Virus record (IMG/VR): IMGVR_UViG_3300000115_000007 | Coordinates: 27,664 to 91,663 of that record | Strand: one strand, 5' to 3' | DNA: 64,000 nucleotides | From: a virus | Shown here: positions 11,698 through 52,000 of the stretch, one piece after another | How the letters are laid out: each line of letters starts with the position of its first letter | How positions within the stretch are numbered: position 1 is the first letter of the stretch | Notes under the pieces: model-generated | The model's input: only the letters and a program-made list of their open reading frames with translations | Told to the model about the DNA's origin: nothing | Databases searched by the model: none | Program-made: the position numbers and the translations under genes

Positions 11698-11747
11698 CCT
11701 AAAATTACTTTGATAGTAGTGTAGGAGATTTTCATGGGAGAGACATA

Positions 11748-12458: not shown

Positions 12459-12493
12459 TATATTACCTCATTGTTTAAAATTATATTATTCAT

Positions 12494-13830: not shown

Positions 13831-13838
13831 GACTCTAT

Positions 13839-34818: not shown

Positions 34819-36256
34819 ACAAGTATACGTAGGTTTAAGTGACACGATTAATACTTTTAGAGTGAAAACTAATAATATTGCTGCTCAAATTGGAGATTTA
34901 GATAATCTTAGCACTGAATATGCTGGTCACGATTCAGACATAGTACAAGCTTTAAATTTTAGTAAAGATGTACGTCGTGCTTACACCGCATCAAACGGTA
35001 TTAAAAAAGTCAGCCTTAGCGGAATTATTACTGGTGACTCAAGCGGGACATTTTCGGTATCGGCAGGACACGGTCTTACTCAACTTGATAGTGGACTTGA
35101 GTTAACAGATATGGCAGGAAACACTGTTAAAGTACGAGATGCTGCCACTACCGGTAGATCAACGGATAAAGTAGTTACTAACGAGCAAATTTTAATCGGT
35201 GATGGAACTGGTTTCACATCTGCTCCTTTATCTCAAGATGTTCTTATGACAAATGCTGGTGTTGTAACAATTCAACCTGACGTTGTGACTAATACTAAGC
35301 TAGCTAATATGCCAGCAGTAACGATGAAAGTAAATGCAACAGGTTCAGTCGCTGATCCACAAGATTTGGCACTTGGAAATCATACTATTGTTGGTAGATT
35401 AGGTACAGGTGATATTAGTACGTTAACAGTTGGTACAAGCACAGTAATTGGTCGTACAACATCTGGTGATATCATAGCAGCTCAGGCCGCAACAGATCAA
35501 ATAGCTGATGATGCTGTGACTAATGCTAAGCTTGCTAATATGCCAGCAAATTCAGTAAAAGTTGGAAATAGTTCTTCAGCAGCAGATCCTTCAGATATCA
35601 CAGTAGCAGACACTCAAATTCTAATTGGTGATGGTGATGGATTTACCGCTGCAGCATTATCTGGTCATGTTACTATGACAAATGCTGGTGCGTGTACGGT
35701 TTCTGGAGGCGAAGCCGATTTTGTAAAAGTTGATGAAAAAAATGACGATGTAAATTACCAAGTATTATTTAGCGATAATAATGGCTCAGGTTATCAAAGA
35801 CCTTATATTGATACTGATGATGGACATATGATGTACAATCCATCATCACAAACATTATCTGCCGGTACACTTGCTGGTAATGCTGCAACTGCAAACTTTG
35901 CGGATTTAGCTGAGAAATATACTACAAGTGAAGAGCATCCGGTTGGAACAGTGATGATGGCATCATATAATAAAACTGAAGAAACTACTCCTTGCACATC
36001 AAGCGGAATTCCAGTAGGCGTAGTTTCAGCTCAACCTGCTTATTTAATGAATGCAGATGCGCCAGGCCAAGCTTTAGGTCTTAAGGGAAGAGTTCCAGTA
36101 AGGGTTGTTGGCGGGGTTCATAAAGGTGATCCAGTGTATACGCATCATAATGGCTGTGCAAGTAAAGAATTTAATGGAGCTATGATGGTAGGTGTAGCTT
36201 TAGAATCGTCTACTGTAGATGAAGAAAAATTGATAGAATGTGTCCTTAAAGTGTAA
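34811..36256 (+). CDS. tail fibre protein with self-assembly-type C-terminal domain
   Basis: A 481-aa Ala/Thr/Gly/Val-rich protein. The middle has imperfect repeats with VVTNxxxLIGDGTGFTSAPL and VTNAKLANMPANSVKV units, typical of tail fibres. The C-terminus (from about residue 365) contains FADLAEKYTTSEEHPVGTV, then a Gly/Val barrel. This is a common closing domain of phage fibres and is related in appearance to chaperone or G2-peptidase-like ends. It is the last gene before the radical-SAM cassette; its stop is followed by a stem-loop and promoter at 36252-36292. Confidence 0.72.
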   Translation: MARQVYVGLSDTINTFRVKTNNIAAQIGDLDNLSTEYAGHDSDIVQALNFSKDVRRAYTASNGIKKVSLSGIITGDSSGTFSVSAGHGLTQLDSGLELTDMAGNTVKVRDAATTGRSTDKVVTNEQILIGDGTGFTSAPLSQDVLMTNAGVVTIQPDVVTNTKLANMPAVTMKVNATGSVADPQDLALGNHTIVGRLGTGDISTLTVGTSTVIGRTTSGDIIAAQAATDQIADDAVTNAKLANMPANSVKVGNSSSAADPSDITVADTQILIGDGDGFTAAALSGHVTMTNAGACTVSGGEADFVKVDEKNDDVNYQVLFSDNNGSGYQRPYIDTDDGHMMYNPSSQTLSAGTLAGNAATANFADLAEKYTTSEEHPVGTVMMASYNKTEETTPCTSSGIPVGVVSAQPAYLMNADAPGQALGLKGRVPVRVVGGVHKGDPVYTHHNGCASKEFNGAMMVGVALESSTVDEEKLIECVLKV

Positions 36257-36298: not shown

Positions 36299-36826
36299 AT
36301 GATTAATAAATCTCAACTCATATCTGCACTTACTGCAAACCATATGTATGAACAAAATATGGTTTATGCTATAGATGAACATGGTCGTGAACAGCTAATT
36401 ACTAGCTTTAGCGATTTTTGTAAAGTGCAAAAACAAAACCATTCTATAAAAATCGAACGTATGGAAAACTTTAATTCAACAATATATGAATATTGTTGGA
36501 AAATAAAAACTGATTGGAAACATGAACAACATGTAACATGTCATTTATTTTTTGCGGGTGCTGGTTCTTATTCTTTTGATATGCATACCGATCCAGATGA
36601 TGTAGTTATATATTGCTGTGAAGGATCTAAGTCTTTAATAATTGATGATAAGCCAGTGACTATTATTCAAGGAGAATATATACATATACCAGCTTATACA
36701 CCTCATCAAGCATTAAATAAAGATGAAGCATTAACTTTAAGCTTTGGTTTAGAAAATTATACAGAGGATAAAATTAATAATGAACTGGCTGATGTATCTC
36801 AAAACAACAGAAACATGTCAGCTTAA
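36299..36826 (+). CDS. cupin/JmjC-like Fe(II) oxygenase
   Basis: A 175-aa protein whose second half is a double-stranded beta helix: SFDMHTDPDDVVIYCCEGSK, then IIQGEYIHIPAYTPHQALN. His96-x-Asp98 and His136 make a complete facial triad for Fe(II), as in JmjC-type protein hydroxylases and other cupins. It starts the cassette, directly at a strong promoter, and overlaps the first radical-SAM gene by 47 bases. It may hydroxylate a protein side chain together with the cassette enzymes; the substrate is unknown. A non-catalytic cupin is the alternative. If the leaderless start is not used, an in-frame ATG at codon 16 could serve. Confidence 0.75.
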   Translation: MINKSQLISALTANHMYEQNMVYAIDEHGREQLITSFSDFCKVQKQNHSIKIERMENFNSTIYEYCWKIKTDWKHEQHVTCHLFFAGAGSYSFDMHTDPDDVVIYCCEGSKSLIIDDKPVTIIQGEYIHIPAYTPHQALNKDEALTLSFGLENYTEDKINNELADVSQNNRNMSA

Positions 36827-37799
36827 TTGTGCGCATTGTTTTACAAGCGGAAGAAGCGGTCAAAAGATTTATTGGAATACTGATAAGCTAGTTGACTGGA
36901 TTCATAGATTTAGAAAAGAAAAACCTGCAGCACAAGATTCTATACATATGGAATTTCATGGCGGTGAACCGTTTCTTGTGCCGGTTGGCCAAATGCGAAA
37001 GGTATATGATGCATGTGATGGTTTATGGGATCAAATGTCGTGGGGTGCCACAACTAATTTAGTTTTTAAATTAAAAGATCAGCATATGGATTTTATTAAA
37101 GGTCCTCTTGGAAATAGACTTGGCACATCGTGGGATCGTAAGATTCGATTTGAAAATAAAAACCAATATAATCTTTGGCATAAAAATGTTAAAACACTTT
37201 TGGCAGATGGTGTTACTATTCGTTTGTTTATTAGTCTTACAAAAGATACACTTGCAAAAGATCCTATAGTATTATTAAGATGGTGCCGCCGACTTGGTGT
37301 ACAAGAAGTTTCACTGGAAAGACTAACTAATAATGGTAGTGCCCGAGAAGCATCAGAAATATTTCCAAGCAATAAAGAACTTGATGAATATTTTTTAAAA
37401 ATGCACATGCAAAGTGAAGAGCACGGAGCACGAGATTGGTTTGAAAACGACTTTCTAGAAAATGTATATGCTAAGTTTGAAAAGACTATGACTACGTGTG
37501 GAACATTTTGTAGAGATTGTGAACAAAAACTATTTACTATAAATGGTGATGGAACTATTGCAGGATGTCCAAACAGCGCGCCAGAACAAGCCTTTGGAAG
37601 TTTAGACGATTCAATTGATACATTGTTAAAAAGTCCAAAAAGAATTCGTACTATATTAGAAGAAAAAATGCGTAATCCTAATTGTTTATCTTGCCCTGTA
37701 TCTAGATTTTGTGGCGGTGATTGTCATCAATTAGGATGGGATGGAGATATTTGTGGCGCGCCAAAAAGTTTAATGATGGAACTCGCAAAACATGTATAA
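36780..37799 (+). CDS. radical SAM enzyme A with SPASM domain
   Basis: A 339-aa protein with the radical-SAM CxxxCxxC at Cys13-Cys17-Cys20 (CQLNCAHC), the GGEP motif (HGGEPF), and a C-terminal SPASM-type cysteine set (CGTFCRDC, GTIAGCP, NCLSCPVSRFCGGDC, GDIC). SPASM proteins bind extra Fe-S clusters and usually modify peptides or proteins by radical chemistry (thioether or C-C crosslinks, epimerisation). It ends just at a late promoter that drives the candidate substrate gene (37829). The start may be codon 1 or Met5; both overlap the cupin gene. Confidence 0.88.
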   Translation: MNWLMYLKTTETCQLNCAHCFTSGRSGQKIYWNTDKLVDWIHRFRKEKPAAQDSIHMEFHGGEPFLVPVGQMRKVYDACDGLWDQMSWGATTNLVFKLKDQHMDFIKGPLGNRLGTSWDRKIRFENKNQYNLWHKNVKTLLADGVTIRLFISLTKDTLAKDPIVLLRWCRRLGVQEVSLERLTNNGSAREASEIFPSNKELDEYFLKMHMQSEEHGARDWFENDFLENVYAKFEKTMTTCGTFCRDCEQKLFTINGDGTIAGCPNSAPEQAFGSLDDSIDTLLKSPKRIRTILEEKMRNPNCLSCPVSRFCGGDCHQLGWDGDICGAPKSLMMELAKHV

Positions 37800-37802
37800 A
37801 TA
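37795..37802 (+). promoter_or_regulatory. T4-type late promoter TATAAATA
   Basis: A perfect TATAAATA overlapping the stop of radical SAM A and 26 bases before the gene for the Cys-His-repeat protein. It is the only perfect late promoter I found inside the cassette. Confidence 0.75.
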
Positions 37803-37828
37803 CACCTATATAACGAAAGAGAAATGAA

Positions 37829-38392
37829 ATGGCCACATTAACAAATCCAATCACTGCACAGAATATAATAGATAGATTTGCGGATTTTGCACCGGCGGCT
37901 GCTAATTCTGGTATTGTTTGGGGTACCAACTCAGTTCCGTTTAGTGGATTTTCTACATCATATTTTGGTGGAACGACTGCTGGTCGAAGTATTGGAATTA
38001 CTGGAGCTGATATAAATCAAAATCCAATCACTGCTTCTGTTATTAATACAGCAATTGAAAATGAAACCGCTGCATATAGTCAAATTAGAAATTTAAATGC
38101 AACCCGAACAGTAACAGGTCCTGGTGGTAATACAGGATCATATCCTAATCCTGGACAAATTTTTAATCAAACAGCAAAAGCATATTTAAGTAGTAGTTAT
38201 GCACAAACGCTATCTGCGGCCGGAGTCACTTTAACTGCTGGTACTCAAATTAGTGCATCTGGGCTTGAAGCTAAATTCGCAGACTTACAAACTCGTTTTA
38301 ATAGTCTAGTTTCTAATACTGTTACTGTAAATGTTAATATTTGTCATGCTAGTTGTCATAGCAGTTGCCACGCCGCGAGAGGAAGAAGATGA
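37829..38392 (+). CDS. candidate modified protein/precursor with C-terminal Cys-His repeats
   Basis: A 187-aa protein. Residues 1-170 are Ala/Thr/Ser/Gly/Asn-rich, reading like a virion or leader domain, with neither cysteine nor histidine. The last 17 residues, ICHASCHSSCHAARGRR, hold all three Cys (172, 176, 180) and all three His (173, 177, 181) as tandem CHxS units and end in RGRR. It has its own late promoter and lies among five radical-SAM and five oxygenase-like genes. The next gene starts inside its stop (ATGA). The tail looks like a RiPP-type core or a metal-binding tip matured by the cassette. No protease or exporter is visible, so a modified structural protein may be more likely than a secreted peptide. 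Confidence 0.75.
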   Translation: MATLTNPITAQNIIDRFADFAPAAANSGIVWGTNSVPFSGFSTSYFGGTTAGRSIGITGADINQNPITASVINTAIENETAAYSQIRNLNATRTVTGPGGNTGSYPNPGQIFNQTAKAYLSSSYAQTLSAAGVTLTAGTQISASGLEAKFADLQTRFNSLVSNTVTVNVNICHASCHSSCHAARGRR

Positions 38393-39036
38393 AAGTTATT
38401 GATGTTACTGCACCATTTAGTATTGAAGATTTGAAATTGTATTTTGAAGATGATCAAACTTTTTATATGGTTGATTATGAAAATTCGCAATTGCAGGGAA
38501 CAAAACTATTAACATATCTTAGTAATCTGGAATTGCCATGTAATATTGGTTTTACTGATCAGAAAGATTTTGATGATCTTACTAGAGAATATCTTTTAGC
38601 TAATTTTATTATAAGTGTTCCTATTCTTGAAGAAAGAGTAATTAGTTTATTATTGCAGATGAAAGGTATTAGTGAATTAATAGAAAAAGATTTTATTGAT
38701 GATAACGTTGAAATACTTACTACTTGGGCAAAGAAATTAGATTCACTTTCGCTTTACAATCTGTACACTGTTGAATGTGATGAATTAAAAGACTACGTTA
38801 AATCATTTCCAGAAGATGACACGAAAGATTTAACTGGAATAAATTTTGTAAATTTGCTTAAATACGAAAGCTTTTATTTATTTTATGTCAATGTAATTGA
38901 ACATCATAAAACATATTATAAATCATATTTTAATGAGTATATGTTTAAAGGAAATAATTTATTTAGCTATTGGGCAAATGTTAATAACCCAATGTTTTTA
39001 CTAACAAGTTCAATCGCCACAGGAGAACAGTTATGA
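38389..39036 (+). CDS. unknown cassette protein 1
   Basis: A 215-aa, acidic, largely helical protein. The start at 38389 overlaps the stop of the Cys-His-repeat gene (ATGA), which implies coupled synthesis; the upstream in-frame start at 38365 would overlap that gene further. No metal-binding or cofactor motif was recognised. Tight coupling suggests it acts with the putative substrate, for example as a recognition or scaffold protein, but this is inference. Confidence 0.65.
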   Translation: MKVIDVTAPFSIEDLKLYFEDDQTFYMVDYENSQLQGTKLLTYLSNLELPCNIGFTDQKDFDDLTREYLLANFIISVPILEERVISLLLQMKGISELIEKDFIDDNVEILTTWAKKLDSLSLYNLYTVECDELKDYVKSFPEDDTKDLTGINFVNLLKYESFYLFYVNVIEHHKTYYKSYFNEYMFKGNNLFSYWANVNNPMFLLTSSIATGEQL

Positions 39037-40181
39037 TACATCTGTTTAAGAAGATTTATGTAACAACAGATAATATCATCGATCTGGGATATGATCGGAT
39101 TGTAGTATCACAAAATCATGGATTAGATGTTTTAGAAGATTTACAAAAAATATCTTCAGGCAAACTTATCTCATATTCATTAGAATGGAGTGGAATACTA
39201 GGATCAAAAGATGTAACATATCCAACCGCAATAGATTTATTTACTAAATTAGCAGATCACTGTGATGCTACAGATAAAAGAGTTATTATATATTGTGATG
39301 ATGATTCATTGCAATTCATAATGTCAACATGGTATAAACATATTCTAAAAACACCAACTAAAGAGTCTGTTAAATCGCTTCTACAAGCTCATGCATTTAA
39401 ATTTAATGTATTCTTTAGAGGTCGTTTTTCTGGTAATGGTGGAAATGTTGGTACTGAAGAAATTTTAAAATTAACAAATTTCGATACTATTTACGATAGC
39501 GTAAAAGCAGGTTCATCTGCCAAACGAAAAACTTTTGTTAAAAAATATATTAACACTATTGGTGTAGAACATTTATTTGCAAATTATTTACATAATAAAT
39601 CTACAAAAGAAGAACTAAAAAGTGTAATAAAAATACTACTAAAAAAAGATCTAGAAAAGTATTTGTATGAGTTAAAAGAAATATTTTTCCAGCATTTCTT
39701 AACTAAAAAAGTCGCGGACAAATTTAATTTAAATGCATCATATAATTTTGATAATATTAGTAATATTTTAGATGATACTAGCGATATTGCTCAAGTTTTT
39801 ATTAAAGATGATATGTGGGTATCAAAATATATGAGTACAGCTTCAAGCAACAATAACGTTTTGTTTGATAATATTTCAGCTTCAGATTTAGTAACAATTA
39901 GAAAATTTACACAAATTATTGCTGATGGTTGGTCTCAATTTAAAGTATATGATGCCGGAAAAAGTGATGTAAATAAATTAGATTTCATCGAATGTATAAC
40001 TGGAGAATTTACTGATACTTTATTAGATAGTCTCATTGAAATGGAATCTACATATGATAATGAATCTGGTTCATTTTTCTCTTTAGAACTGGAAACGGTT
40101 AATCATTATTTGATACATTCTTTATTAGATGCAAATTCTAATGCAGATGCAGCCTTTTTGAGTAGGTATATCACAGTGTAA
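39033..40181 (+). CDS. unknown cassette protein 2
   Basis: A 382-aa protein coupled to the previous gene by ATGA. The first 110 residues look like an alpha/beta domain (KIYVTTDNIIDLGYDRIVVS, then KRVIIYCDDDSLQFIMSTWY). The rest is helical, Lys/Asp/Asn-rich, with no visible catalytic motif. It is not recognised. Position between the substrate candidate and radical SAM B suggests a role in the same pathway. Confidence 0.65.
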   Translation: MIHLFKKIYVTTDNIIDLGYDRIVVSQNHGLDVLEDLQKISSGKLISYSLEWSGILGSKDVTYPTAIDLFTKLADHCDATDKRVIIYCDDDSLQFIMSTWYKHILKTPTKESVKSLLQAHAFKFNVFFRGRFSGNGGNVGTEEILKLTNFDTIYDSVKAGSSAKRKTFVKKYINTIGVEHLFANYLHNKSTKEELKSVIKILLKKDLEKYLYELKEIFFQHFLTKKVADKFNLNASYNFDNISNILDDTSDIAQVFIKDDMWVSKYMSTASSNNNVLFDNISASDLVTIRKFTQIIADGWSQFKVYDAGKSDVNKLDFIECITGEFTDTLLDSLIEMESTYDNESGSFFSLELETVNHYLIHSLLDANSNADAAFLSRYITV

Positions 40182-40182
40182 T

Positions 40183-41202
40183 ATGTCTATATATGATATA
40201 TTAGAAAACAAAATAACAACTTATGGTGAGATTGTATGTTGTTTATTTGAGCACTGTAATCTTCAGTGTGTTTTCTGTCCTCAAGATCATAATTCAATAG
40301 AAGGTGCTAACCGTGATTCTATCATGGCAAAAGTTCCTCAAATTGTAGAATGGATTAATAACAATAGAAGAACACAATCCTATAAATTACATTTAATGGG
40401 TGGCGAACTCTTTCAAGATGAATGGATAGATAAAGGTTTCCTAGAAATATATCAGGACTTTATTGATTCTATCATAGTACAAACAGAAGCTGATGTACAT
40501 ATTAATTTTATAACTAATTTATGCTTTACAAAGTCCGATATGGTAATGGATTTTTTAGAACATAATAATTTAACTATTTCTGTAAGTTACGATCCTGCTG
40601 GCAGATTTACTCCAAAAGCACATGATATTTTTGTTTCAAATATTGAAACATATAAAAATAAGATTGAAATGATTTCATTAGTTGCCACAAAACAAAACAT
40701 TGCAAAAATTACAAGAGGTGATAACTTATTCACGTACCTTTATAATACATATCCATGCGACTTTGATTCATTTTTGCCATCAGTAAAAAATTCAAAAAAA
40801 TTAATGCCAAGTGAAAGAACTCTTTTTGAGTTTAATAAACTACTTGTATCTAAATATCCTAAATGTTTAAACGTAGATCATTTCGTTAATCAAAAAATGC
40901 AAAATAAAATGATTTGCACAAGAGGTAATTCTCTTACTGTCATGCCAGATGGATCTATTCCTACTGGATGTTCTGGTGCAGTATTTTTAAAAGAAGCTCA
41001 AACTGAAGAACTTGGTGGACCAAAAATAGTTGAAAACTTTATGACTAAATATAATTGCTTTGAGTGTGAGTATTTTGCTCGATGCCCATTTAGTTGTTTT
41101 ATTAAACAAGATTATAAACACATTGAACAAGACATGGATGAATGTGTCTTTAAAGAGACTTTTAAATATGCAGATAGCCTTTATCAACCCACCGCATGCT
41201 GA
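40183..41202 (+). CDS. radical SAM enzyme B with SPASM-like C-terminus
   Basis: A 339-aa protein with Cys25-Cys29-Cys32 (CNLQCVFC), a GGE motif (HLMGGELF) and a C-terminal cluster region (ICTRGNS, PTGCSGA, NCFECEYFARCPFSC, DECVF). These features mark a peptide-modifying-type radical SAM with auxiliary Fe-S clusters. It begins one base after the previous stop and its end overlaps the B12-binding enzyme start (41168) by 35 bases. Reaction type cannot be told from sequence. Confidence 0.85.
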   Translation: MSIYDILENKITTYGEIVCCLFEHCNLQCVFCPQDHNSIEGANRDSIMAKVPQIVEWINNNRRTQSYKLHLMGGELFQDEWIDKGFLEIYQDFIDSIIVQTEADVHINFITNLCFTKSDMVMDFLEHNNLTISVSYDPAGRFTPKAHDIFVSNIETYKNKIEMISLVATKQNIAKITRGDNLFTYLYNTYPCDFDSFLPSVKNSKKLMPSERTLFEFNKLLVSKYPKCLNVDHFVNQKMQNKMICTRGNSLTVMPDGSIPTGCSGAVFLKEAQTEELGGPKIVENFMTKYNCFECEYFARCPFSCFIKQDYKHIEQDMDECVFKETFKYADSLYQPTAC

Positions 41203-42838
41203 TTGGTCATTAGCCAATAATATGACTTATTTAATAGCTCAAAGCTATTATAAGCATTTTGGAAAATACAGTGATCAAATAGAATGGTTAGAATCTTCTT
41301 ATAAATGGAATACTTATCAATCGTTTGATGAAGCAATTGAGCAGGTGATATCTGCTGATATAATAATGTTTTCTTCATATGCTTGGAACTATGTCATTTG
41401 TGATGGAATAGCTTCTAAGATAAAACAAAAACATCCTGAAAAATTATTAGTATTGGGTGGGCCGCATATAGGAACTAATGATCCTGAACTATTAGCAAAT
41501 AGAACTCAATATGATTATATATGTCAGCCAACTAAACCAGGTGAAATATTTATGAGAGATCTGATCGATCAATACATTGAAAACAAGCTTGATCCCAAAA
41601 CTATTTCTTGGGAGTTAAGATCCAGTATTGGTGATATTCATAATATTAGTAAAGAAGATTATTCTGTATATGAAGAGCATTCTGAGTATTTAACTAGAGC
41701 CCTCTCATATGCTCAAGAAAATAATATGGAGCCATTTATTATTCTTGAAACAACTCGAGGATGTCCTTATAAATGTGTGTTTTGTGAATGGGGTGGAGGT
41801 ATTAATACTAAAATTTATAAAAAGGATTTGAGTATTGTAAAACGAGACATTGATGCTATGATCAAAGCTGGATATCGAGATGCATATTTAACTGATGCAA
41901 ACTTTGGCGCGTTTGAAGATAGAGACATAGAAATATTTGCATATGCTTGGAATAAAGGATTTAATCTAACTGATATATCGACTATGAAATCAAAAGATTT
42001 AAATAGAAGAAAAAGATTAATTGATAGATGGTTTGAAGTAGTCGGTACAGATCAAAGATCACCTAACTCAAAAGATGGTAACGATATGTGGAAAGAGACT
42101 TCAATGATGTCTATTGTTCCAACTGTATCAATTCAAAGTAGCTCTGATATTGCTATGAAATTAGCAGAAAGAGTTGATTTGAATTCAGAAGATAAGTTAG
42201 AATTAAGTAAATACATTAACAAAAGATGCAGTGAAAATGGTTTTCCTATTCCATCATTAGAATTAATTTTAGCAATGCCAGGATCTACAATAGATGATTT
42301 CTATAAAGAAATGGATTACATATGGAACTTTCAAGCTTTTGGATCGTATCGGCATGACTATATGTTTTTACCTGATTCTAGACTTAATTCTCAAGAATAT
42401 AAAATTAAACATGATATCAGAACAGTAGAAGTATTTACTGATATTGTGGATGAACAAGGGACTGATAGTTGGAGTGAACTATATAAAGATAAAAGATCAT
42501 ATTTTAGAACTATGGCATCATGCTTTTCATTTACAACTGAGGAAATGCATGAGATGTGGTTTATGAATAATGCAGGTAATTACTTACTACAACATTTTTA
42601 TCCAGCGTTTGAAGATGATTTAACACCTCCAGTTTTTGCTAAAGAAGCATATAAAATTATAATAGAGTTAGATAACTGGGATAATATATACTATGAGATC
42701 AGAGATATTTTTAATCCAAATTCACCACCAAAAAGCATAAGACAATTAGGAGATAAATTTAGAACTGAAACTATACATGAATTTTTAGAAAAAAATAAAA
42801 TTATAATTATGTCGGAGGTAAGCAAAATATGTGCATAA
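41168..42838 (+). CDS. B12-binding-type radical SAM enzyme C
   Basis: A 556-aa protein from ATG 41168, a start that avoids a long overlap with the previous gene. Residues 1-135 form a B12-binding-like Rossmann domain (MQIAFINPPHADWSL, LLVLGGPHIG). The radical-SAM domain follows with RGCPYKCVFCEWGGG (Cys199, Cys203, Cys206) and DANFG, and then a long C-terminal region. Such proteins use cobalamin for methylation of unreactive carbons or other radical steps. Phage examples are unusual. The C-terminal 200 residues contain many aromatic and acidic residues and may bind substrate. Confidence 0.83.
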   Translation: MQIAFINPPHADWSLANNMTYLIAQSYYKHFGKYSDQIEWLESSYKWNTYQSFDEAIEQVISADIIMFSSYAWNYVICDGIASKIKQKHPEKLLVLGGPHIGTNDPELLANRTQYDYICQPTKPGEIFMRDLIDQYIENKLDPKTISWELRSSIGDIHNISKEDYSVYEEHSEYLTRALSYAQENNMEPFIILETTRGCPYKCVFCEWGGGINTKIYKKDLSIVKRDIDAMIKAGYRDAYLTDANFGAFEDRDIEIFAYAWNKGFNLTDISTMKSKDLNRRKRLIDRWFEVVGTDQRSPNSKDGNDMWKETSMMSIVPTVSIQSSSDIAMKLAERVDLNSEDKLELSKYINKRCSENGFPIPSLELILAMPGSTIDDFYKEMDYIWNFQAFGSYRHDYMFLPDSRLNSQEYKIKHDIRTVEVFTDIVDEQGTDSWSELYKDKRSYFRTMASCFSFTTEEMHEMWFMNNAGNYLLQHFYPAFEDDLTPPVFAKEAYKIIIELDNWDNIYYEIRDIFNPNSPPKSIRQLGDKFRTETIHEFLEKNKIIIMSEVSKICA

Positions 42839-43335
42839 AAGATATTTACACAAAAGGATATGTTAAATTGCGAGAAGCCGAAGGTCTGACATTAATTGGA
42901 GCAGATAATTTTAAGCTTTTAAACACAGAAGAAAGAGCAAGAGATAATGGTGAACAAGACGTTGAGCCATTACTTGCTACTAAACTTGATATGTTCGGTC
43001 AATACCTATACAATAAATACATTTTACCAGAATGGCCAAAAGCCGTTTTTAATAAGTATTTAATATGGGATGGTGTTGATAAAGATAACCAGGGTTGGCA
43101 TACTGATATGTTTGAAAAATATGATGTGTTTTTCTTATATTATTTAGATGATACATTTGCCGAAACTGGTGGGAATATAGATTTTAAATGGAATAAATCA
43201 GAAACAATTTCATTTCAACCAAAAGCGGGTGATTTATTTATGGTATCTAATATACGTGGATTTTGGCATAAAGCAGGTCAATCTTCAATACAACGAAGGG
43301 TATGTTCATTTGACTTTAATACAAACAATAGTTGA
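42829..43335 (+). CDS. 2-oxoglutarate/Fe(II) oxygenase-like protein 1
   Basis: A 168-aa protein with a complete iron-binding set: QGWHTD (His91, Asp93), FWHKAGQ (His147) and RRVCSFDF (Arg156/157, likely 2-oxoglutarate binding). The strand FFLYYLDDTF and the loop PKAGDLF are shared with the proteins at 43606 and 45131. It overlaps enzyme C by 10 bases. It likely hydroxylates or otherwise oxidises a protein or peptide residue. Confidence 0.8.
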   Translation: MCIKDIYTKGYVKLREAEGLTLIGADNFKLLNTEERARDNGEQDVEPLLATKLDMFGQYLYNKYILPEWPKAVFNKYLIWDGVDKDNQGWHTDMFEKYDVFFLYYLDDTFAETGGNIDFKWNKSETISFQPKAGDLFMVSNIRGFWHKAGQSSIQRRVCSFDFNTNNS

Positions 43336-43609
43336 TAAAAAAGAAACTCTTTGCAAAGAAAGAGATTTGACAGCAGAACTATATAATCTTTGGATTACTA
43401 AATTGCATGATTTTGAGGATGATGAAAATAAATATGAGCAATATATGAAAATGATTGATAATCTTGAACCATATGCAAATATGTTAAAAGAAGAAATTAG
43501 ACAATGTAATAGAGAAATAATAGAACACTATGGTGTTAAATCAATAAATGAAACACCTTATGCAGTTGAGTGTGTTAATAAACACGGCTATGATAGGCCA
43601 AACGGATGA
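43310..43609 (+). CDS. small helical cassette protein, uncertain start
   Basis: A roughly 99-aa charged helical protein (KKETLCKERDLTAELYNLW and on), possibly a coiled-coil partner. The frame has no ATG near its expected beginning; a TTG at 43310 with GAAGGG upstream, or an earlier GTG (43229 or about 43256), must start it. The end overlaps the next gene by ATGA. No family recognised; the frame's integrity and coupling support reality. Confidence 0.5.
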   Translation: MTLIQTIVDKKETLCKERDLTAELYNLWITKLHDFEDDENKYEQYMKMIDNLEPYANMLKEEIRQCNREIIEHYGVKSINETPYAVECVNKHGYDRPNG

Positions 43610-44100
43610 ATGTTGGTATTTTAGTTCCAGAGCTATTAATGTCTGGATATAAGATTTTTAATGATAAAGAGATCTTATATTTAATAGGCAATATTCCTCC
43701 TGTTAATTCATGGACTATTAAATCAGACACAAGTGGAACATATACTCCAGATGAAAAAATAAATTTAGAACCAGCCCATGACTATATAAAAGATAATTAC
43801 GTTGATAAGTATTTTAATAATTCGACTAAAGGTTATAATAATATATGGAGTTCAACTGATGTAAATTCTATGTCATGGCATAATGATTTAGTCGAAGGAC
43901 CAAATTTATTTTTTATGTATTATTTAAATGATGTAATAAATGATGGTGAAATATGTTTTAGAATTAATGGTGAAGAAACTGGAAAAATAAAACCTAAAAA
44001 GGGATTACTCTTAATGGGATCTCAAGAATTATACGTTGAACATAAAGTCAATCACACAGATGAAACTCGTGCGGTTTGTAATTTTGGGTTCTATGTGTAA
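43606..44100 (+). CDS. 2-oxoglutarate/Fe(II) oxygenase-like protein 2
   Basis: A 164-aa protein with SWHND (His92, Asp94), VEHKVNH (His146) and ETRAVCNF (Arg155). The core pattern LFFMYYLNDV and KPKKGLLL parallels oxygenase 1 (FFLYYLDD, PKAGDLF) and oxygenase 3 (FICLYYFN, PKKGNLA), so the three look like paralogues. It is coupled on both sides (ATGA at 43606, TAATG at 44100) and immediately precedes radical SAM D, suggesting the two act in sequence. Confidence 0.8.
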   Translation: MNVGILVPELLMSGYKIFNDKEILYLIGNIPPVNSWTIKSDTSGTYTPDEKINLEPAHDYIKDNYVDKYFNNSTKGYNNIWSSTDVNSMSWHNDLVEGPNLFFMYYLNDVINDGEICFRINGEETGKIKPKKGLLLMGSQELYVEHKVNHTDETRAVCNFGFYV

Positions 44101-45134
44101 TGGATCTAATTGTCAAACCAACAGAATTATGTAATTTTAAATGTTCATTTTGTTCATCATCTAAAATTACGTTTGAGGATAATACTGCTACTCTTGATCT
44201 AAATAAGATATTTAAGTTTTTAAAACGTTTTCCAGACACTCAAACAATTATTGTTAATGGTGGTGATCCATTAATGATGAAACCAAATTACTATTGGAAA
44301 ATTATAGAGTATCTTGATAAATATGATCTGCCTGCAACAATATCGCTTACAACAAATTTATATCCATTTCTTATGAAACCAATGAAATGGAAAGAACTTT
44401 TTAACCATCCTCGAATTGGTGTAGCTACATCATTTCAATATGGAGGAGGGAGATTAAAAGGTGATTATAGTGAATTTACAGAAGAAGATTTTTGGAAGTG
44501 TTCAGATGCGATGCTAGAACATGTTGGATACAGACCAGCATTCATAGCCGTAATCGTTGAAGAAAACGAAGATACTCATATTAAGACAGTTGAACTTGCA
44601 AAGAAAATGAATGTAGTCTGTAAAGTAAATTATGCCATGGCATCAGGTTCACAGTCTGCGCCATATCAGTTATCAAAAATATATGAACGTTATATTGAAA
44701 TATGGAAAGCTGGATTAAGCGATTGGGAACATAACACTCAACAGATGATGGTACGACTAAGAGGAGAATCCACTATATGTCCTCAAACAAGAACATGTGA
44801 TTCTGGCATTCGAACACTTCAACCTGAAGGTGACTACTATTCGTGTGGTGCATTTGGCGATGATTTAGATAAGGCTATTGATTTTAATTACGAAATGAGT
44901 GGTGGATTTTCAACACCTCTTGCAACAGATTTAAGTTTAATGAGTTTGAAAAATGCATGTTATACTTGTCCTATGTTTGAAATTTGCAATGGTTGTAAAA
45001 AAACTATTAAAGATTTAAAACAACATAACATGGTAGAAGATCATTGTAAACATATGAAGACATTGGCTTTAGACATTATTAAAGCAAACGATATAAAACT
45101 AGAACCTACGCCTTATATAAGAGAATATGCATGA
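44100..45134 (+). CDS. radical SAM enzyme D with SPASM-like C-terminus
   Basis: A 344-aa protein with Cys11-Cys15-Cys18 (CNFKCSFC), NGGDPL and a C-terminal auxiliary-cluster region (ICPQTRTC, YYSCGAF, ACYTCPMFEICNGCKK, HCKHM). It reads as a full peptide- or protein-modifying radical SAM. The short N-terminus before the motif matches radical SAM E (CNFRCDFC), and the two may be distant duplicates. The start lies in a TAATG overlap and the end in an ATGA overlap. Confidence 0.86.
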   Translation: MDLIVKPTELCNFKCSFCSSSKITFEDNTATLDLNKIFKFLKRFPDTQTIIVNGGDPLMMKPNYYWKIIEYLDKYDLPATISLTTNLYPFLMKPMKWKELFNHPRIGVATSFQYGGGRLKGDYSEFTEEDFWKCSDAMLEHVGYRPAFIAVIVEENEDTHIKTVELAKKMNVVCKVNYAMASGSQSAPYQLSKIYERYIEIWKAGLSDWEHNTQQMMVRLRGESTICPQTRTCDSGIRTLQPEGDYYSCGAFGDDLDKAIDFNYEMSGGFSTPLATDLSLMSLKNACYTCPMFEICNGCKKTIKDLKQHNMVEDHCKHMKTLALDIIKANDIKLEPTPYIREYA

Positions 45135-45664
45135 ATTTAAAAGATGATTTTCATACAGTTGTTAGTAATAAAGATATTATTAAGTTAATGAGCAATATAG
45201 AAACTAATATATTTGCCGATGAAAGGCTTATAGATGATTTTGTACAAACAAAGAAATTTCTATCGCAGAATTATCCGTTTGAGTATGCAATTTTAATTAA
45301 TGTTGCAACTATAATTTCTAATACGCTGCTCGAGCCTGAATTTGGACCAGTTGAGTTAATTGAACATAAATTAAATAAAGGTCGGCACGATGGAAATACT
45401 GTATACCACTATGACAAAACAGGCGGGGATCATCCCGATGGCATATATAAAGACATAGATTTTATTTGTTTATATTATTTTAATACACTACAAACTGGCC
45501 CTCTTTGTATAAAAAATAAATATAACGAATACTTTTACTATCCAAAGAAGGGAAATTTAGCAATTATTAATGAATTGAATCCGACTGTTGAACATAAAAT
45601 AGAGCCTTATGATTGGAAAAATATAGAAAGATATACAGCTAGATTTGGTTTTAAACTTTTATGA
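45131..45664 (+). CDS. 2-oxoglutarate/Fe(II) oxygenase-like protein 3
   Basis: A 177-aa protein with VYHYD (His93, Asp95), TVEHKIEP (His155) and ERYTARFGF (Arg167 or Arg171). It shares VEHK, the LYYFN strand and PKKGN with oxygenase 2. The first 80 residues differ from the other two. Coupled by ATGA at both ends. Likely the same reaction class on another residue or substrate. Confidence 0.77.
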   Translation: MNLKDDFHTVVSNKDIIKLMSNIETNIFADERLIDDFVQTKKFLSQNYPFEYAILINVATIISNTLLEPEFGPVELIEHKLNKGRHDGNTVYHYDKTGGDHPDGIYKDIDFICLYYFNTLQTGPLCIKNKYNEYFYYPKKGNLAIINELNPTVEHKIEPYDWKNIERYTARFGFKLL

Positions 45665-46365
45665 AACTAGATTTCTTAGCCCCATATTATCAGAATATTG
45701 AAAATCCTTCAGAAGAAATTAAAATTAAAATTTCAGAAGAAAGTCCTAAAAGCTATGCTTTGACTCGTGCGCCAAATAGAATGAATTCAGATGGAAGAAT
45801 TAACTGTGAAGGATTATATGAGGATGGTGTTGTTGCTGTATCTGTTAGTCCTATAAATCCTAAATTTAGATCACAGATAGAAGATGGTGTATGGCCTTTT
45901 ATAGAGTGTTTAATTAATAAAAATTATTTTACTATGAGTTGTTGTGAAGGACACGACGATAGAATGGGCGATCATTTTTATATTACATTAGCCTCTCCTT
46001 GTAAGAATGAATTAAAAGTTATAGAAAATGAAGTCGAGCATATTATAGGTTGTAAAGTCACAAAGAAAGATTCAATCGCTAATAATACTATAGTTTGGCA
46101 TGAGGATGGTAATCAATTAAAAACTATAGAGACTAGGATTGTTGTAGATGCTGATGCCGAAGCTGAAGACATAAATAATATGTATTTAAGAAAGTATCCT
46201 CGTTATTATTTTTTAAAAATCGATATGTTTACTAATAAAGATGATATCTATTTTGAATTTAATTTAACCAATCTAAAAAATAGAATAATATATTTAATAT
46301 TCAATAAAAAAAGTTTAGCGGAGTTACTAAATAAATTTAAAAAATTACCTAGGTCTACAAAATGA
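45661..46365 (+). CDS. unknown cassette protein with SCCEGH motif
   Basis: A 234-aa protein. The centre contains FTMSCCEGHDD followed by MGDHFYITL, a Cys/His cluster reminiscent of a motif (SCxGH...) in small phage proteins of unknown function. The C-terminal third is Lys/Asn-rich. Two adjacent Cys and the His could bind metal. It is coupled by ATGA to oxygenase 3 and to radical SAM E. No firm family. Confidence 0.65.
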   Translation: MKLDFLAPYYQNIENPSEEIKIKISEESPKSYALTRAPNRMNSDGRINCEGLYEDGVVAVSVSPINPKFRSQIEDGVWPFIECLINKNYFTMSCCEGHDDRMGDHFYITLASPCKNELKVIENEVEHIIGCKVTKKDSIANNTIVWHEDGNQLKTIETRIVVDADAEAEDINNMYLRKYPRYYFLKIDMFTNKDDIYFEFNLTNLKNRIIYLIFNKKSLAELLNKFKKLPRSTK

Positions 46366-47270
46366 TCGTATCGATTAACCCCTCATATTTTTGTAATTTT
46401 AGATGTGATTTTTGTTATCTATCTACTAAACAACTTGGAGATCAAAAACAAATTTCATTTGATAAACTAGATGAGTTGTTATCTCAAGTGCCAGATATAG
46501 AACATGTTGACTTATATGGTGGTGAAGTTGGTGCAATGAAAAAGTCGTATTTTTATGGCATTAAAGATGTTATAAGAAAATATTATTCGGGTGAAATTAG
46601 CATCAATACTAATTATTCTATGATGCATCCAGGATTCTTTGATGATGATGTATATCTTGCTGTCTCATATGATTTTGAAGCAAGAGAAAAGTCTGAACTT
46701 GTATTTCAAAATATGTTAATGAGTACAGTACCTATTGCAGTTTTAGTTTTAGCATCTCCAAAGGTGCTAGAAAAAGATGTATCTGAAATGATTAATATGT
46801 TGAATATGTGTTCGTCAATTATGTCTGTTGAGATTAAACCATATTCAATTAATCAAGCAAATGCTCATAATGTTACACACAAAGACTTTGAAGATTTTGT
46901 TATAAAGTGGCTCAAGTTAAAAGACACTATGAAGTTTGAATTTGTAAATGAAAACAGAATTATAGAATCAATGAAAGGAAGATATAATGCATTTTCGGAT
47001 GATCATATATACATCACTCCTTCTGGCAAATTTGGTGTCTTGGAATTTGATGAAGAGGATAAAGAATTCTTTCTTGAATTGGATTCTTGGGAACAATACA
47101 TTGATTGGACAAACAAAGAAAAAGAAGAAATGATAAGTCCTATATGTGCCTCATGTAAGTATTTTGGAAACTGCTTAACAGAGCATTATCGATATGTCAA
47201 AGATTTAAATAATAGCTGTAACGGATATAGAGGATTATTGGATTGGTATCATGAAAGAATGGCAAGTTAA
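46362..47270 (+). CDS. radical SAM enzyme E with short C-terminal cluster region
   Basis: A 302-aa protein with Cys11-Cys15-Cys18 (CNFRCDFC) and YGGEVG, and near the C-terminus PICASCKYFGNCLTEHY followed by SCNGY, a smaller auxiliary cluster set than in enzymes A, B and D (twitch-like). It overlaps the next gene by 20 bases. Probably another peptide- or protein-modifying enzyme. Confidence 0.83.
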   Translation: MIVSINPSYFCNFRCDFCYLSTKQLGDQKQISFDKLDELLSQVPDIEHVDLYGGEVGAMKKSYFYGIKDVIRKYYSGEISINTNYSMMHPGFFDDDVYLAVSYDFEAREKSELVFQNMLMSTVPIAVLVLASPKVLEKDVSEMINMLNMCSSIMSVEIKPYSINQANAHNVTHKDFEDFVIKWLKLKDTMKFEFVNENRIIESMKGRYNAFSDDHIYITPSGKFGVLEFDEEDKEFFLELDSWEQYIDWTNKEKEEMISPICASCKYFGNCLTEHYRYVKDLNNSCNGYRGLLDWYHERMAS

Positions 47271-47655
47271 ACAAGAAGTTTATCATAGATTAAATAAAAA
47301 TCATACAGATGATTTGAATAAAGTAGAAATAGTTTTTGATGATAATCAAGAGGTTATTATTAAAAATGCTATTCGACACTTTAATGAGAAAGTAGATGAA
47401 TGGTTATATCCAGCCAAGAGTTATGTTGTAGCAATATGTTATGCTTATTGGATTAGTAGAGATTTTAACGAAGATTTTTATGATTTGTTAAATGAACCAA
47501 TGCTTTTAGCTGGTAATGATCCATATTTTAAAACATACGAAAATAGTAAGGAAATATACGATAGTATACTTAACAATATAGATTGGCCATTGATGGTAAT
47601 TCACGGTATGGTTCGGGATATAAAAGGATATTATGATGTTGAAATCGGGTATTAA
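47251..47655 (+). CDS. unknown cassette protein 3
   Basis: A 134-aa, acidic, aromatic-rich helical protein overlapping both neighbours (20 and 23 bases). No cysteine motif except a single CYAYW. The size and helical nature would suit a partner or recognition protein for an adjacent enzyme, which is inference only. Confidence 0.6.
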   Translation: MKEWQVKQEVYHRLNKNHTDDLNKVEIVFDDNQEVIIKNAIRHFNEKVDEWLYPAKSYVVAICYAYWISRDFNEDFYDLLNEPMLLAGNDPYFKTYENSKEIYDSILNNIDWPLMVIHGMVRDIKGYYDVEIGY

Positions 47656-48196
47656 TCAGTGTTGGTCAACACCAATATATAAAACTCAAATTACTTCAGA
47701 CCAATGTGAAGAATTAGTTCAAGAAATTTTACTTAGTACTAATATTATGAAACCACAGGCTGAATACGACAGCGGTACACTTACAGATAAAATTCCATTG
47801 TTAAAAGATTTAGCTATAGAAAAATATACAGAATTTTTTAAAGAAGTATTTAGCATCGACCTAAATGATATGTCTTACGAATTTAGTTCTTGGTTAACAG
47901 GATCTCAAAAAGGATATTCAATGAATATTCATAATCATTCTGGAGCTCAATTTGCTGCAGTATTTTATGTTCTTTCTGACGATATTGATAAAGGTGGAGA
48001 ACTAGTGGCGTACGATCCAAGAGCAAATGCCAACAGAGGTTATTTTGGTAAAACCGCTGAAATGTTTAAACCTATTGAGTACGCACCTAAAACTGGTGAT
48101 GTAATAATTATGCCAGGATATGTTTATCATCTAGTAAAAACATATCACTCTAATCTTAGACTAGCTGTTCCAGTCGATATTTTTTTAAAATCATGA
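47633..48196 (+). CDS. 2OG-Fe(II) oxygenase (phage T4-type family, PF13759-like)
   Basis: A 187-aa protein of the family often annotated as 2OG-Fe(II) oxygenase in T4-type phages: CWSTPIYKTQI at the N-terminus, SWLTGSQKGYSMNIHNHSGAQ, then FYVLSDDIDKGGEL, MPGYVYHLVKTY and RLAVPVDI. The proximal motif is HNH (100-102), the distal His is 166 and Arg176 may hold 2-oxoglutarate. It differs from the three short paralogues earlier in the cassette. Last gene of the operon, with late promoters for fibre genes beyond it. Confidence 0.78.
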   Translation: MMLKSGINQCWSTPIYKTQITSDQCEELVQEILLSTNIMKPQAEYDSGTLTDKIPLLKDLAIEKYTEFFKEVFSIDLNDMSYEFSSWLTGSQKGYSMNIHNHSGAQFAAVFYVLSDDIDKGGELVAYDPRANANRGYFGKTAEMFKPIEYAPKTGDVIIMPGYVYHLVKTYHSNLRLAVPVDIFLKS

Positions 48197-48333: not shown

Positions 48334-48723
48334 ATGGCTCATTACGAAGATATAGAAATTGATCAAGGAACTGATGTTGTAATTCAATTGGAACTATATA
48401 ATCCAGACGGATCAAGAAAAACTTTACTTAACTGGGATTCAGATTTAGGAAGCTTTCACAATAATTATGACATGAGAGGTTATATTAAAAAAAGCTATAA
48501 CTCAACAGACTCAGCAGTTCAGTTTGGATGTACCGCATACAATCCACAAAATAAAGAAAATATTTTAGAGCTATCTTTAACTAATGTACAAACCGATGCA
48601 ATGCGCGCCGGCCGGTTTGTGTATGATGTTGAGATAGCGTCTACCGATAGTGACACTGGCATTGTAACAGTAGAACGCATTTTACAAGGGAATTTGACAT
48701 TAGTACCTTCAGTTACTAGATAG
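48334..48723 (+). CDS. small virion structural protein
   Basis: A 129-aa beta-rich protein starting AHYEDIEIDQGTDVVIQLEL and ending with RFVYDVEIASTDSDTGIVTV and RILQGNLTLVPSVTR. This all-strand layout, ending in a VERxLQGxxxxxPxVTR pattern, is common in small structural proteins next to fibre genes of marine phages. Probably a fibre-connector or baseplate-upper-type domain. Driven by the paired late promoters upstream. Confidence 0.65.
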   Translation: MAHYEDIEIDQGTDVVIQLELYNPDGSRKTLLNWDSDLGSFHNNYDMRGYIKKSYNSTDSAVQFGCTAYNPQNKENILELSLTNVQTDAMRAGRFVYDVEIASTDSDTGIVTVERILQGNLTLVPSVTR

Positions 48724-48731
48724 GAAAAACC

Positions 48732-48974: not shown

Positions 48975-48978
48975 TCAT

Positions 48979-48986
48979 TATAAATA
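48979..48986 (+). promoter_or_regulatory. T4-type late promoter TATAAATA
   Basis: A perfect TATAAATA just after the stop at 48974 and 42 bases before the start of the giant fibre gene. Confidence 0.75.
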
Positions 48987-49028
48987 GATTTAACATTAAA
49001 GTATAGAATAAGATAGGTTGTTTATTTC

Positions 49029-52000
49029 ATGGCATCTATAATCCAGATTAAAAGATCAGCTACACAGACCATACCGACAAGTTTAGCGATAGGTGAAATG
49101 GCGTATTCATACGCTGATAGTGCAAATTCTCCAGGTACTGCTAAACTTTATATCGGAATAGGTCCTCCAGTCGACAGTGCCCATATTGTGCCCAACATGG
49201 CCACACAAATTGTGACAATTGGTGGTGAATATTATACTAATTTACTTGGAAGTGGTATGCCTGGTATTTCAGTAGCAAATCAATATGTATTATTAGATTC
49301 AAATAGAAAAATAGACTATCAAGCATTTGGTAATTTAGTAGCCGACTCCGGTACAATTAGTAAATTTATGTCTGATAGTGCAGCAATTGCATATGCCAAT
49401 ATTGACTCAGCCCATATCCTAACTCTTTCTGGAAGAAGTATTACTTTTGACTCTGGCGTAATAAGTCAATTTTCAGCTGACAGCGCAAGACTTACATACG
49501 CTCATATCGATACATCTTATCAACCTCTTATCACTGGACCGGATCAGATTATTATTGATCCTACGGCTGTAGGCGACAATACTGGCCGTGTTTTAATTAA
49601 AGGTGATTTACAGGTTGATGGTACACAAACTATTGTTAATTCAACAACTGTATCGACAAACGATATTAATATTACAGTTGCTGATGAAGCTGTTGATAGT
49701 GCTGCAGCAGATGGTGCCGGCTTATCGGTATTTGGTGACAGTTTTTACGACCGTGCCCATCTTAAATGGAATGCTACAACAAATAAATGGAATGTTAATC
49801 CTGGTATAGTAACATCGACTATCGATGCCACTGATAGCGGAGATATTCAAAATCTCACTGGTGACTATGTAGGTTATGCTAGAGGCATTATTAGTCAGTT
49901 CATGTCTGATAGCGCAAGAATTGAACATCTAGTTACTAACACTCAACATAATCAAAATACAGAAACTGTTGGTACTGCATCAACTCAAAATCTTGTACTA
50001 CGATCGTCGTTACCGCAAAGAGTATTATTTTCTGATAGTATTGATGTTGTAAGAGGCGTTGATAATTTCTTATATGTTGAATCCGATTTAGCCAATGATA
50101 ATGATAATAATAAGTACTTCAGAGATGATAAAAAAGAAGGTCTTTTTATTGGTCGTCAGAGATTAAGAGATTCTGGTTATTATAATACATTTATTGGCGC
50201 TGATGGTACTGTAAGAGGAACTACTTTTAAATTTGGTGAAGATGGTAAACCAACTGCTGTACCTGGAGGCTTTGACGGCTACACTGGATTTACGTATCCT
50301 GATATGCCATCGATGGGACAAAGAGAATTAGATTTTTATGGTTTAGAAATTAGAGACAGCGGCCTCTTTTCTACATTACAGCAAAACGTATTTAAAACAG
50401 ATATGAGTGTTGAATCTGCAGCGACATTAAGCCTAACTGGTGACTCGCTTGGCATGATTAGAATTCTAGGATCATTGGATAGTTCATTAATCGAACTTAG
50501 AAAAGATGGATCGATTAACTTTGTTGGAGGTTTATTTCAAGATAATTCAGAATATATCGGTGGTGGTTTATTTAAACCAGTTCCAGGAAATAATATTGGT
50601 GATGTGGCTTATCGTCCTGACCCTACTGTTGCGGCTCAAACTGGGGCAAATCCTTTAGGATTAGGAAACAGACTTGCATATGGCATAGCAGAGCCTAAAC
50701 TTGGTTTTGATATTACTAGTAAATCGTTTCAAGTATCTGCTAAATTTGATCCTACTACAGTTGCTTCTAGAAAGCTTTTTCCATCTAATCTTCAAGCTAC
50801 TGCAACTATGGCTGCTTTTGGACAAGATATTGATGATAGTAATAAAGCTCGCTTACTATTTGATGGTAATGCAGCAAGATTTAGAGCTGGATATTTTGAC
50901 TATGAAGATATCCATGTTAATAATATGGGATTGTATTCAAACGCGTTTGGATTCTCATCTAGAGCGTTTGGTGACTATTCCTTTGCTGCAGGTGATTCAG
51001 CTAAAGCACTATCTAATTATTCTATTGCTATGGGTCAAAAACCTCTTGTGTCTTCCGGAGCGGCGAATGGTATTGTTTTAGGTGGTCTCAGCTCAGTTAA
51101 TACTAATGGTATAAGTACGCCTGAAACACAATTTGCTGGAGCAGCGATTGGATTTAATAATAATATAACAGGCGATTTAGAAAATGCTATAGCAATCGGT
51201 CGCTCAAATACTCTTGCTACTACTGCTTCATGGTCATCTAGTCAATCACATTATCAGAATGTAGCTATCGGCATTGATAATAGCGTATCTAGTATAGTAG
51301 GCGCAAATGTTATATTAGGTGCAAATAATAAAATATTTGGTGATGGTAATGTTACAATCGGCGGATCATTCGATAATGGAGTGGCTGGAAGTAATAAGAT
51401 TGGTGTTGTTGGAACAAATGCTACTGCAAATTATACATTTGGAGAAAACAATACTGTTGCGGGTAGCTTTAACTTTACAATTGGTGAAGGCAATACGGTT
51501 GTAGATGCCTTAACTAATAGAACACTAACATTTGGTCATACCAATACAGTTTCAGCTGATGATGCTATGGCATTTGGCAGACAGAATACAGTTGCAGGTG
51601 AAGGCTCTATGGCATTTGGCCGTGGTGTTACTATTACAGCTGCTGCTGATTATTCAGTGGGCATGAACTTAAATGGTAATCCAGCAGAATTTGCTGAAAT
51701 TAAAGATGCTAACTTCTTCTCTATTCAAAATGGTAACGTAAGTATTGGTTCTGAATCAGATATGTCAGCTATCGGTTTTGCATCAGGTATAGGCAACCTT
51801 TATGTCGATGGAGACATAATTTATACCGGGGCGGTGTTAAAAAGAGCCGGCGCCGGTGTTGCTGCTGATAACCCATGGACAGATGATGGTTTTTCAGTAA
51901 CATTTACTCAAGTGCCAGCTGACGGATCAAAAGAATTAGGTATTAATGTACCGGTACCATACTCATCTACTGAAATTGTAACCGATTATGGTAATAGTCA

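Follow-up and report, generated by a model that had tools for sequence, protein, structure and literature searches.

In known peptides, radical S-adenosylmethionine (radical-SAM) enzymes of the SPASM type join side chains, among them those of Cys; B12-dependent radical-SAM enzymes methylate carbon, and 2-oxoglutarate (2OG) enzymes hydroxylate. The maturation systems for ribosomally synthesized and post-translationally modified peptides (RiPPs) that use SPASM enzymes, for example dynobactin DynA, the ranthipeptide enzyme PapB, and darobactin DarE, start from a short precursor peptide. Another system, His-Xaa-Ser (Hxs), combines a His-x-Ser repeat with two or more radical-SAM maturases and, to our knowledge, has no known product. 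Phage receptor binding is generally ascribed to genetically encoded protein surfaces and metal ions. Here we describe a phage locus where such enzymes lie among fibre genes. It is found in a 64,000-nucleotide stretch (the window), positions 27,664 to 91,663 of IMG/VR record IMGVR_UViG_3300000115_000007, a 91,663-base record of a T4-like phage. Between positions 36299 and 48196, the window carries 16 overlapping plus-strand genes encoding five radical-SAM proteins, five Fe(II)-type cupin or 2OG oxygenases, five unknowns, and one 187-aa protein, c187.

Our reading is that this is a RiPP-like maturation cassette, likely to give a fibre-associated protein a modified Cys/His tip that contacts bacterial cells; we infer both the chemistry and the virion location from the genes. 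What points to c187 as the protein acted upon? In an alignment of 44 diverse homologues, with identities as low as 20%, nothing is invariant except C172, H173, C176, H177, C180, H181, R184, G185, R186, and R187. They belong to a tail with the consensus CHxSCHxSCHxSRGRR (with small variations, such as RSRR for RGRR in the phages Phosso and Atu_ph07), after which the stop codon follows directly. The motif matches in loci L094 and L102 are exceptions and were discarded as chance. Complete motif proteins range from about 120 to 309 residues, and one of them (L118, 7832-8515) has an extra upstream CHSNVV, giving four Cys-His units and suggesting that the repeat number varies. A cytochrome c heme motif was rejected, the spacing being Cx3CH rather than Cx2CH, and no heme-attachment genes were seen. 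To judge from the tail, c187 is very probably an enzyme substrate.

The motif recurs widely in phages. An exact DNA scan of IMG/VR for the tail returned at least 119 stretches, and the motif is present in at least 134 phage loci in all. Linkage was judged on the 101 IMG/VR motif loci whose flank reaches 5 kb or more on one side. A cassette enzyme is visible in 86 of these 101; the remaining 15 encode short motif proteins of ~127-140 aa, mostly in tandem, and 10 of those 15 records carry the radical-SAM gene rS4 elsewhere. With the latter included, 96 of 101 loci are accompanied by the radical-SAM set. The position directly upstream of the motif gene is taken by another radical-SAM gene, rS1, in 72 of the 101 loci where this could be tested; for u216 in the position directly downstream, the figure is 74 of 111. 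The original prediction had proposed a modification island around one small protein, and the invariant tail, the near-obligate co-occurrence, and the stable fibre neighbourhood (below) argue for it. Relatives carrying the enzymes without the small protein, which would have spoken against it, were looked for, and co-occurrence held almost without exception. Layout and starts of the genes agree with the original prediction; the genes of the cassette and its immediate surroundings are as follows.

34811..36256, plus strand: fib481, fibre-like virion protein directly upstream of the cassette (phrog_19602 tail fiber; phrog_22593)
36299..36826, plus strand: cup175, cupin/JmjC_2-like Fe(II) protein (Pfam Cupin_2 6.5e-8, JmjC_2 7.8e-7)
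36780..37799, plus strand: rS1, radical SAM/SPASM enzyme directly upstream of c187 (phrog_1802 2e-58; TIGR04085 above cut-off)
37829..38392, plus strand: c187, proposed modified substrate and fibre-associated protein (invariant C-terminal residues in the 44-sequence alignment)
38342..38389, plus strand: C-terminal core motif of c187, CHASCHSSCHAARGRR, three C-H-x-[SA] units and then RGRR at the stop codon
38389..39036, plus strand: u216, core protein directly downstream of c187, function and fold unassigned (phrog_20767 1.7e-52; 105 homologous loci)
39033..40181, plus strand: u382, unknown, often present (30 homologous loci)
40183..41202, plus strand: rS2, radical SAM with SPASM-like C-terminus (phrog_1802 1.9e-30)
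41168..42838, plus strand: rS3B12, B12-binding radical SAM, probable C-methyltransferase (KedN5 3e-28; TokK 1e-19; CysS 3e-16)
42829..43335, plus strand: ox1, 2OG-Fe(II) oxygenase-like (2OG-FeII_Oxy_3 7.9e-5, below cut-off; H91xD93...H147, R157)
43229..43609, plus strand: u_i, small accessory protein, as an open frame whose true start is uncertain, perhaps a TTG near 43310 (homologues adjoin ox1 in L007, L012, L103, L113)
43606..44100, plus strand: ox2, 2OG-Fe(II) oxygenase-like (2OG-FeII_Oxy_3 1.7e-3, below cut-off; H92xD94...H146)
44100..45134, plus strand: rS4, radical SAM/SPASM enzyme that best marks the system (Pfam 1.1e-8; homologues in phages and on Bdellovibrio-like chromosomes)
45131..45664, plus strand: ox3, probable Fe(II) oxygenase (HYD...H motif in sequence only)
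45661..46365, plus strand: u234, accessory protein, unknown, not always present (5 homologous loci)
46362..47270, plus strand: rS5, radical SAM with shorter C-terminal Cys region (Pfam 7.2e-7; C262/C265/C271/C286 conserved)
47251..47655, plus strand: u134, conserved small core protein (phrog_20737 5e-37; 52 loci)
47633..48196, plus strand: ox4, 2OG-Fe(II) oxygenase (2OG-FeII_Oxy_5 2.3e-10, above cut-off; phrog_81)
48334..48723, plus strand: s129, resembling a fibre-assembly protein, next after the cassette (phrog_3304 L-shaped tail fiber protein assembly 1.9e-8)
49029..63998, plus strand: giant fibre open reading frame, at least 4990 aa, running off the window

Thirteen IMG/VR relatives keep the order cup-rS1-c187-u216-u382 along with most of the other enzymes, one of them without a recognizable cupin. 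Because the same gene set occurs in near-identical order in relatives at ~50% protein identity, chance is excluded, and the existence and linkage of the cassette are near certain. In close relatives, rS1, u216, rS4, rS5, and u134 are about 88-100% identical, whereas the upstream structural protein f1745 mostly shows about 55-68% identity (91% in L008), so the cassette core evolves independently of its flanks. Among relatives, the central genes (rS2, rS3B12, and the oxygenases) are swapped for other versions, as if the core chemistry were fixed and the decorations variable. One 151-kb phage record (G297, with L012, L063, and L077) has three motif genes, split between two sites; each fibre type might have its own set.

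Do cultured phages carry the system? Whether queried with rS1, rS4, or rS5, tblastn returned the same 7 of 50,697 phage records, which belong to cultured jumbo phages: Agrobacterium phage Atu_ph07 (two copies, as NC_042013 is the RefSeq copy of MF403008 and the same genome thus appears twice), Sinorhizobium phage Phosso, Burkholderia phages SURPRISE13, FLC6, and FLC8, and Pseudomonas phage pPa_SNUABM_DT01. Loci of this kind, which the original prediction had suggested seeking in other phages, occur both in IMG/VR and in these 7. In the cultured-phage records inspected, the order is cupin-rS1-motif protein, with the motif protein adjoining rS1, in or beside the virion-gene region; FLC6 and FLC8 likewise carry the motif protein. 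When c187 or its 22-aa tail was itself the tblastn query against cultured phages, no match came up: the N-terminal part has diverged too far, and the tail is too short. The homologues were recovered instead by the rS1 searches and by scanning for the tail as a DNA pattern.

The enzymes themselves are recognizable to varying degrees. As had been predicted, there are five radical-SAM proteins, all matching Pfam Radical_SAM, although only rS4 and rS5 pass the cut-off, and four of the five match phrog_1802 (E 1e-58 to 1e-29). Their CxxxCxxC motif is kept across homologues, and so are catalytic residues. The SPASM model TIGR04085 is passed by rS1 (35.6 bits, cut-off 27), while rS4 falls below it at 21.8 bits; SPASM cysteines are conserved in rS1 (95 homologues) and in rS4, as are C25/C29/C32 of rS2 (80 homologues). 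The shorter cluster region and the B12 type foreseen for one protein each correspond to rS5, whose shorter four-Cys C-terminus is conserved among homologues, and to rS3B12, which joins a B12-binding domain to a radical-SAM domain. Five proteins with Fe(II) facial triads had also been foreseen. In four of them the motif is conserved across homologues: HxD...H in ox1, ox2, and cup175 (H96xD98...K111...H136, 50 homologues, with Cupin_2 and JmjC_2 above cut-off) and HxH...H in ox4 (H100xH102...H166, R176). Against 2OG-Fe(II) family models, ox4 scores above the cut-off and ox1 and ox2 below it with a conserved triad; ox3 has the motif only, a Pfam search giving no match. In the catalogue, the enzymes that rS1 and rS4 match best are for the most part maturases of peptides or proteins, namely, DynA, sulfatase maturase, PapB, and HxsB/HxsC. 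A solved-structure search returned no relative for rS1, rS4, or fib481.

How does the locus compare with these described systems? It shares with RiPP pathways an encoded precursor beside tailoring enzymes, and with the SPASM systems named above the CxxxCxxC plus SPASM architecture. It differs from the latter in that the presumptive substrate is a folded protein of 120-309 aa, that no exporter or peptidase is recognized in it, and that each locus has several different radical-SAM enzymes. The probable methylase rS3B12 shares domain order and similarity with the B12 C-methyltransferases KedN5, TokK, and CysS, but it is below the family cut-off (98 versus 700 bits) and set in a fibre locus. Hxs is, on present sequence comparisons, the closest named system, and the resemblance is real in motif and enzyme type. 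The HxsA model weakly matches one homologue of c187, the C(HSS)4RGRR protein of L183 (E 0.008; 16.1 bits versus a cut-off of 121.65), and matches neither c187 nor six other homologues. That L183 protein (4346-4918), from a predatory bacterium, looks intermediate between the c187 family and HxsA. The scores of rS1 against HxsB (33.8/370 bits) and of rS4 against HxsC (27.7/267.9 bits) are likewise below cut-off, and no HxsD match was found among the cassette proteins scanned. The cassette differs further in having Cys in each repeat, an RGRR end, four to seven radical-SAM enzymes plus oxygenases, and a fibre context. Assignment to Hxs was therefore rejected, as no model passes its cut-off: the cassette may work like Hxs, but it is not classed as Hxs. 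Among phage adhesins, the T-even gp37/gp38 pair also places the gene for a small protein immediately after that for a fibre. The locus showed no relation to that pair in sequence or fold, and we know of no modifying enzymes for gp38.

The placement between fibre genes that had been predicted was confirmed, with fib481 upstream and s129 and the giant fibre open reading frame downstream (48334-63998 together). The predicted AT-richness stood for 38-48 kb, with a GC content of 0.29-0.31 there and of 0.35-0.39 in the flanks. The first three genes (36-38 kb) have a GC content of 0.35 and do not share it; the AT-rich part begins after c187. The giant frame contains many short ADETYIKG- and DSAYV-type repeats. 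A minus-strand block of virion-type genes occupies 9178-14333, the remainder of the window being plus-strand, and the gp6-like baseplate protein of the source phage is 40% identical to that of phage C48C1 and 34% to that of pelagiphage HTVC008M.

The fibre context extends to other phages. The C-terminal ~130 aa of fib481 (residues 350-479) are the shared neighbour, covered in about 67 of 71 matches at motif loci, and the fibre-gene neighbourhood persists although the N-terminal domain of the motif protein and the fibre itself change. In Atu_ph07, most virion proteins detected by mass spectrometry are encoded by coding sequences 31-76, 170-215, and 284-329 (Attai et al. 2018, PMC6102473). The c187 homologue is gp170, the first coding sequence of cluster 170-215, in a numbering that agrees with the published one (gp181 is the baseplate wedge); gp171 (rS1) and gp172 (cupin) also fall within the range, and gp165-169, including radical-SAM enzymes and u216, fall outside. 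That the cluster starts at the motif gene suggests that gp170 was detected in virions. From such neighbourhoods, the c187 family is probably one of fibre or virion proteins, and a role in host or prey contact, on balance, seems favoured.

What might the cassette make? c187 is predicted to fold into strands and helices (pLDDT, the predicted local distance difference test score, 84), with an extended, low-confidence tail; the u216 model reaches pLDDT 95. Against a viral structure library, c187 gave three confident matches, among them Atu_ph07 gp170, a known family member. Three larger proteins of Myoviridae sp. ctijX18 (BFVD A0A8S5USJ8/USJ7/USV2) show a marginal fold match to it (E 0.007-0.02). 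We propose that the variable N-terminal part of c187 forms its fold and that the three C-H-x-S units and the RGRR end are presented as an extended tail, with u216 and/or u134 as likely substrate-handling partners that would help present the tail. The enzymes rS1, rS2, rS4, and rS5 would then modify its Cys, His, and Ser residues, probably by cross-linking, and the variable accessory enzymes (B12 methylase, oxygenases) may add methyl and hydroxyl groups. A fibre-associated protein would thereby acquire an end that is rigid, resists proteases, or binds metal. The finished tail would be borne on the phage fibre, or in predatory bacteria on a pilin-anchored S74 fibre, and would aid contact with bacterial surfaces.

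Why predatory bacteria? The description of the locus as a phage system holds for the phage loci but not exclusively, as Bdellovibrio-like chromosomes carry the cassette too. When 84,980 species genomes were scanned for exact matches to the tail, ten loci were returned, several of them in Bdellovibrionaceae and Halobacteriovoraceae assemblies. Their flanks look chromosomal (SecA-, cytochrome-oxidase-, and acyl-CoA-dehydrogenase-like genes by eye), and one locus lies within a 4.15-Mb contig. In the phylum of these bacteria, rS4 is found in 16 of 291 genomes, 15 of which encode a Cys/His protein ending in RGRR or RSRR; the one exception has its rS4 gene at the edge of a contig. Tail variants include CHGNFPPPCHGSRGRR, CHSNHCSHSNHGSRGRR, and C(HSS)4RGRR, so that Cys/His spacing varies (CHGNFPPPCH, C(HSS)4) and RGRR is retained. 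The neighbour in most predator loci with enough flank is a prepilin-like protein ending in a Peptidase_S74 chaperone, assigned by Pfam for one locus and by the same sequence pattern in others. Such chimeras of a prepilin N-terminus and a phage-type S74 C-terminus were seen in L176 (14576-15706), L175, L177, L182, L179, L155, L158, and L159. L176 (3506-6777) and its relatives also encode three more radical-SAM-like proteins (e.g., LNGCxxxCxGC), making about seven per locus. Further neighbours are a conserved ~194-aa protein and small proteins with a twin-arginine-like signal start. The twin-arginine translocation (Tat) pathway exports folded proteins, and these neighbours would fit cytoplasmic modification before export. 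Was the cassette recently exchanged between phages and predators? In the rS4 tree, nearly all predator sequences stand apart from the phage ones (1-2 changes), a split that looks old and speaks against recent transfer, except for one long-branch predator row that groups with jumbo phages. In Bdellovibrio bacteriovorus, MAT fibres with a phage-type S74 chaperone function in prey recognition (PMC10769870). The MAT proteins follow a signal peptide, whereas the predator-cassette fibre has a prepilin N-terminus, and the main text of that paper does not mention radical-SAM enzymes.

Several observations weigh against a modified, fibre-borne tail. Searches of the PDB found no match for the c187 or the u216 model, so there is no structural template. 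In the tandem ~127-aa group the enzymes are not adjacent, and 5 of its 15 records (fragments of 18-39 kb) showed no rS4. The pilin-S74 gene is not in every predator locus, partly owing to short contigs, and the predator motif proteins have no evident signal peptide, which makes export via the neighbouring Tat protein a conjecture. Could cleavage instead set the tail free as a small modified peptide (a toxin, signal, or superinfection agent), its fibre neighbourhood being incidental? Sets of radical-SAM/SPASM enzymes, B12 methylase, and 2OG enzymes are typical of RiPP pathways, the basic RGRR end could be a processing signal, and c187 lacks a known fibre-tip fold. However, RGRR is at the very C-terminus rather than between leader and core, Pfam, phrog, and catalogue scans recognized no peptidase or transporter among the cassette proteins, the fibre context is constant across unrelated phages and predators, and gp170 sits at the edge of a virion cluster. 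We consider release unlikely.

It is somewhat less likely still that the enzymes modify the neighbouring fibres, with c187 a scaffold or activator whose unmodified Cys/His tail binds metal or an Fe-S cluster. Such a motif can bind metal and fibres are adjacent, but the fibre is wholly different between hosts while the tail is invariant, and the predator tails, with varying Cys/His spacing and a constant RGRR, fit an enzyme substrate better than one metal site. Finally, these could be auxiliary metabolic or DNA-repair enzymes, as the literature has it. In the pPa_SNUABM_DT01 paper, DNA repair and host metabolism are the roles given to six radical-SAM genes, and a marine virome paper terms such genes auxiliary metabolic genes. 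The peptide maturases among the best rS1 and rS4 matches, the strict association of the enzymes with the motif protein and with fibre genes, and the same association on bacterial chromosomes make this very improbable.

A substrate tail at the fibre thus remains the reading we prefer. Was it anticipated? The claim that no comparable phage system had been described stood in part: radical-SAM genes at such loci are already listed in other phages (PMC8066314, PMC11898562, PMC5468394, PMC8541153, PMC7029224), but none had been linked to a substrate. In the publications on FLC6, SURPRISE13, and RP31, genes for cupin, radical-SAM or Fe-S oxidoreductase, and 2OG proteins are named but given no role. 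A pelagimyophage study noted radical-SAM cassettes in the host-recognition region, and the term radical SAM is absent from a jumbo-phage survey. Among open-licence papers, no proposal of a modified fibre-associated tail system was found.

Tentatively, the cassette could represent a new class of enzymatically built contact tips: several radical-SAM and oxygenase steps would give the fibres of phages and of Bdellovibrio-like cells, both killers of bacteria, an adhesive, redox, or metal tip that is made from a Cys-His-Ser tail but no longer protein-like. Cultured carriers exist among Pseudomonas, Burkholderia, Agrobacterium, and Sinorhizobium phages, which makes the idea directly testable. If true, adhesion would gain made-to-order chemistry from enzymes dedicated to remodelling a fibre-associated tail. 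Such a system would also account for several radical-SAM genes of jumbo and marine phages now labelled as repair or auxiliary metabolism, and would connect phage tails with the prey-contact fibres of predatory bacteria.

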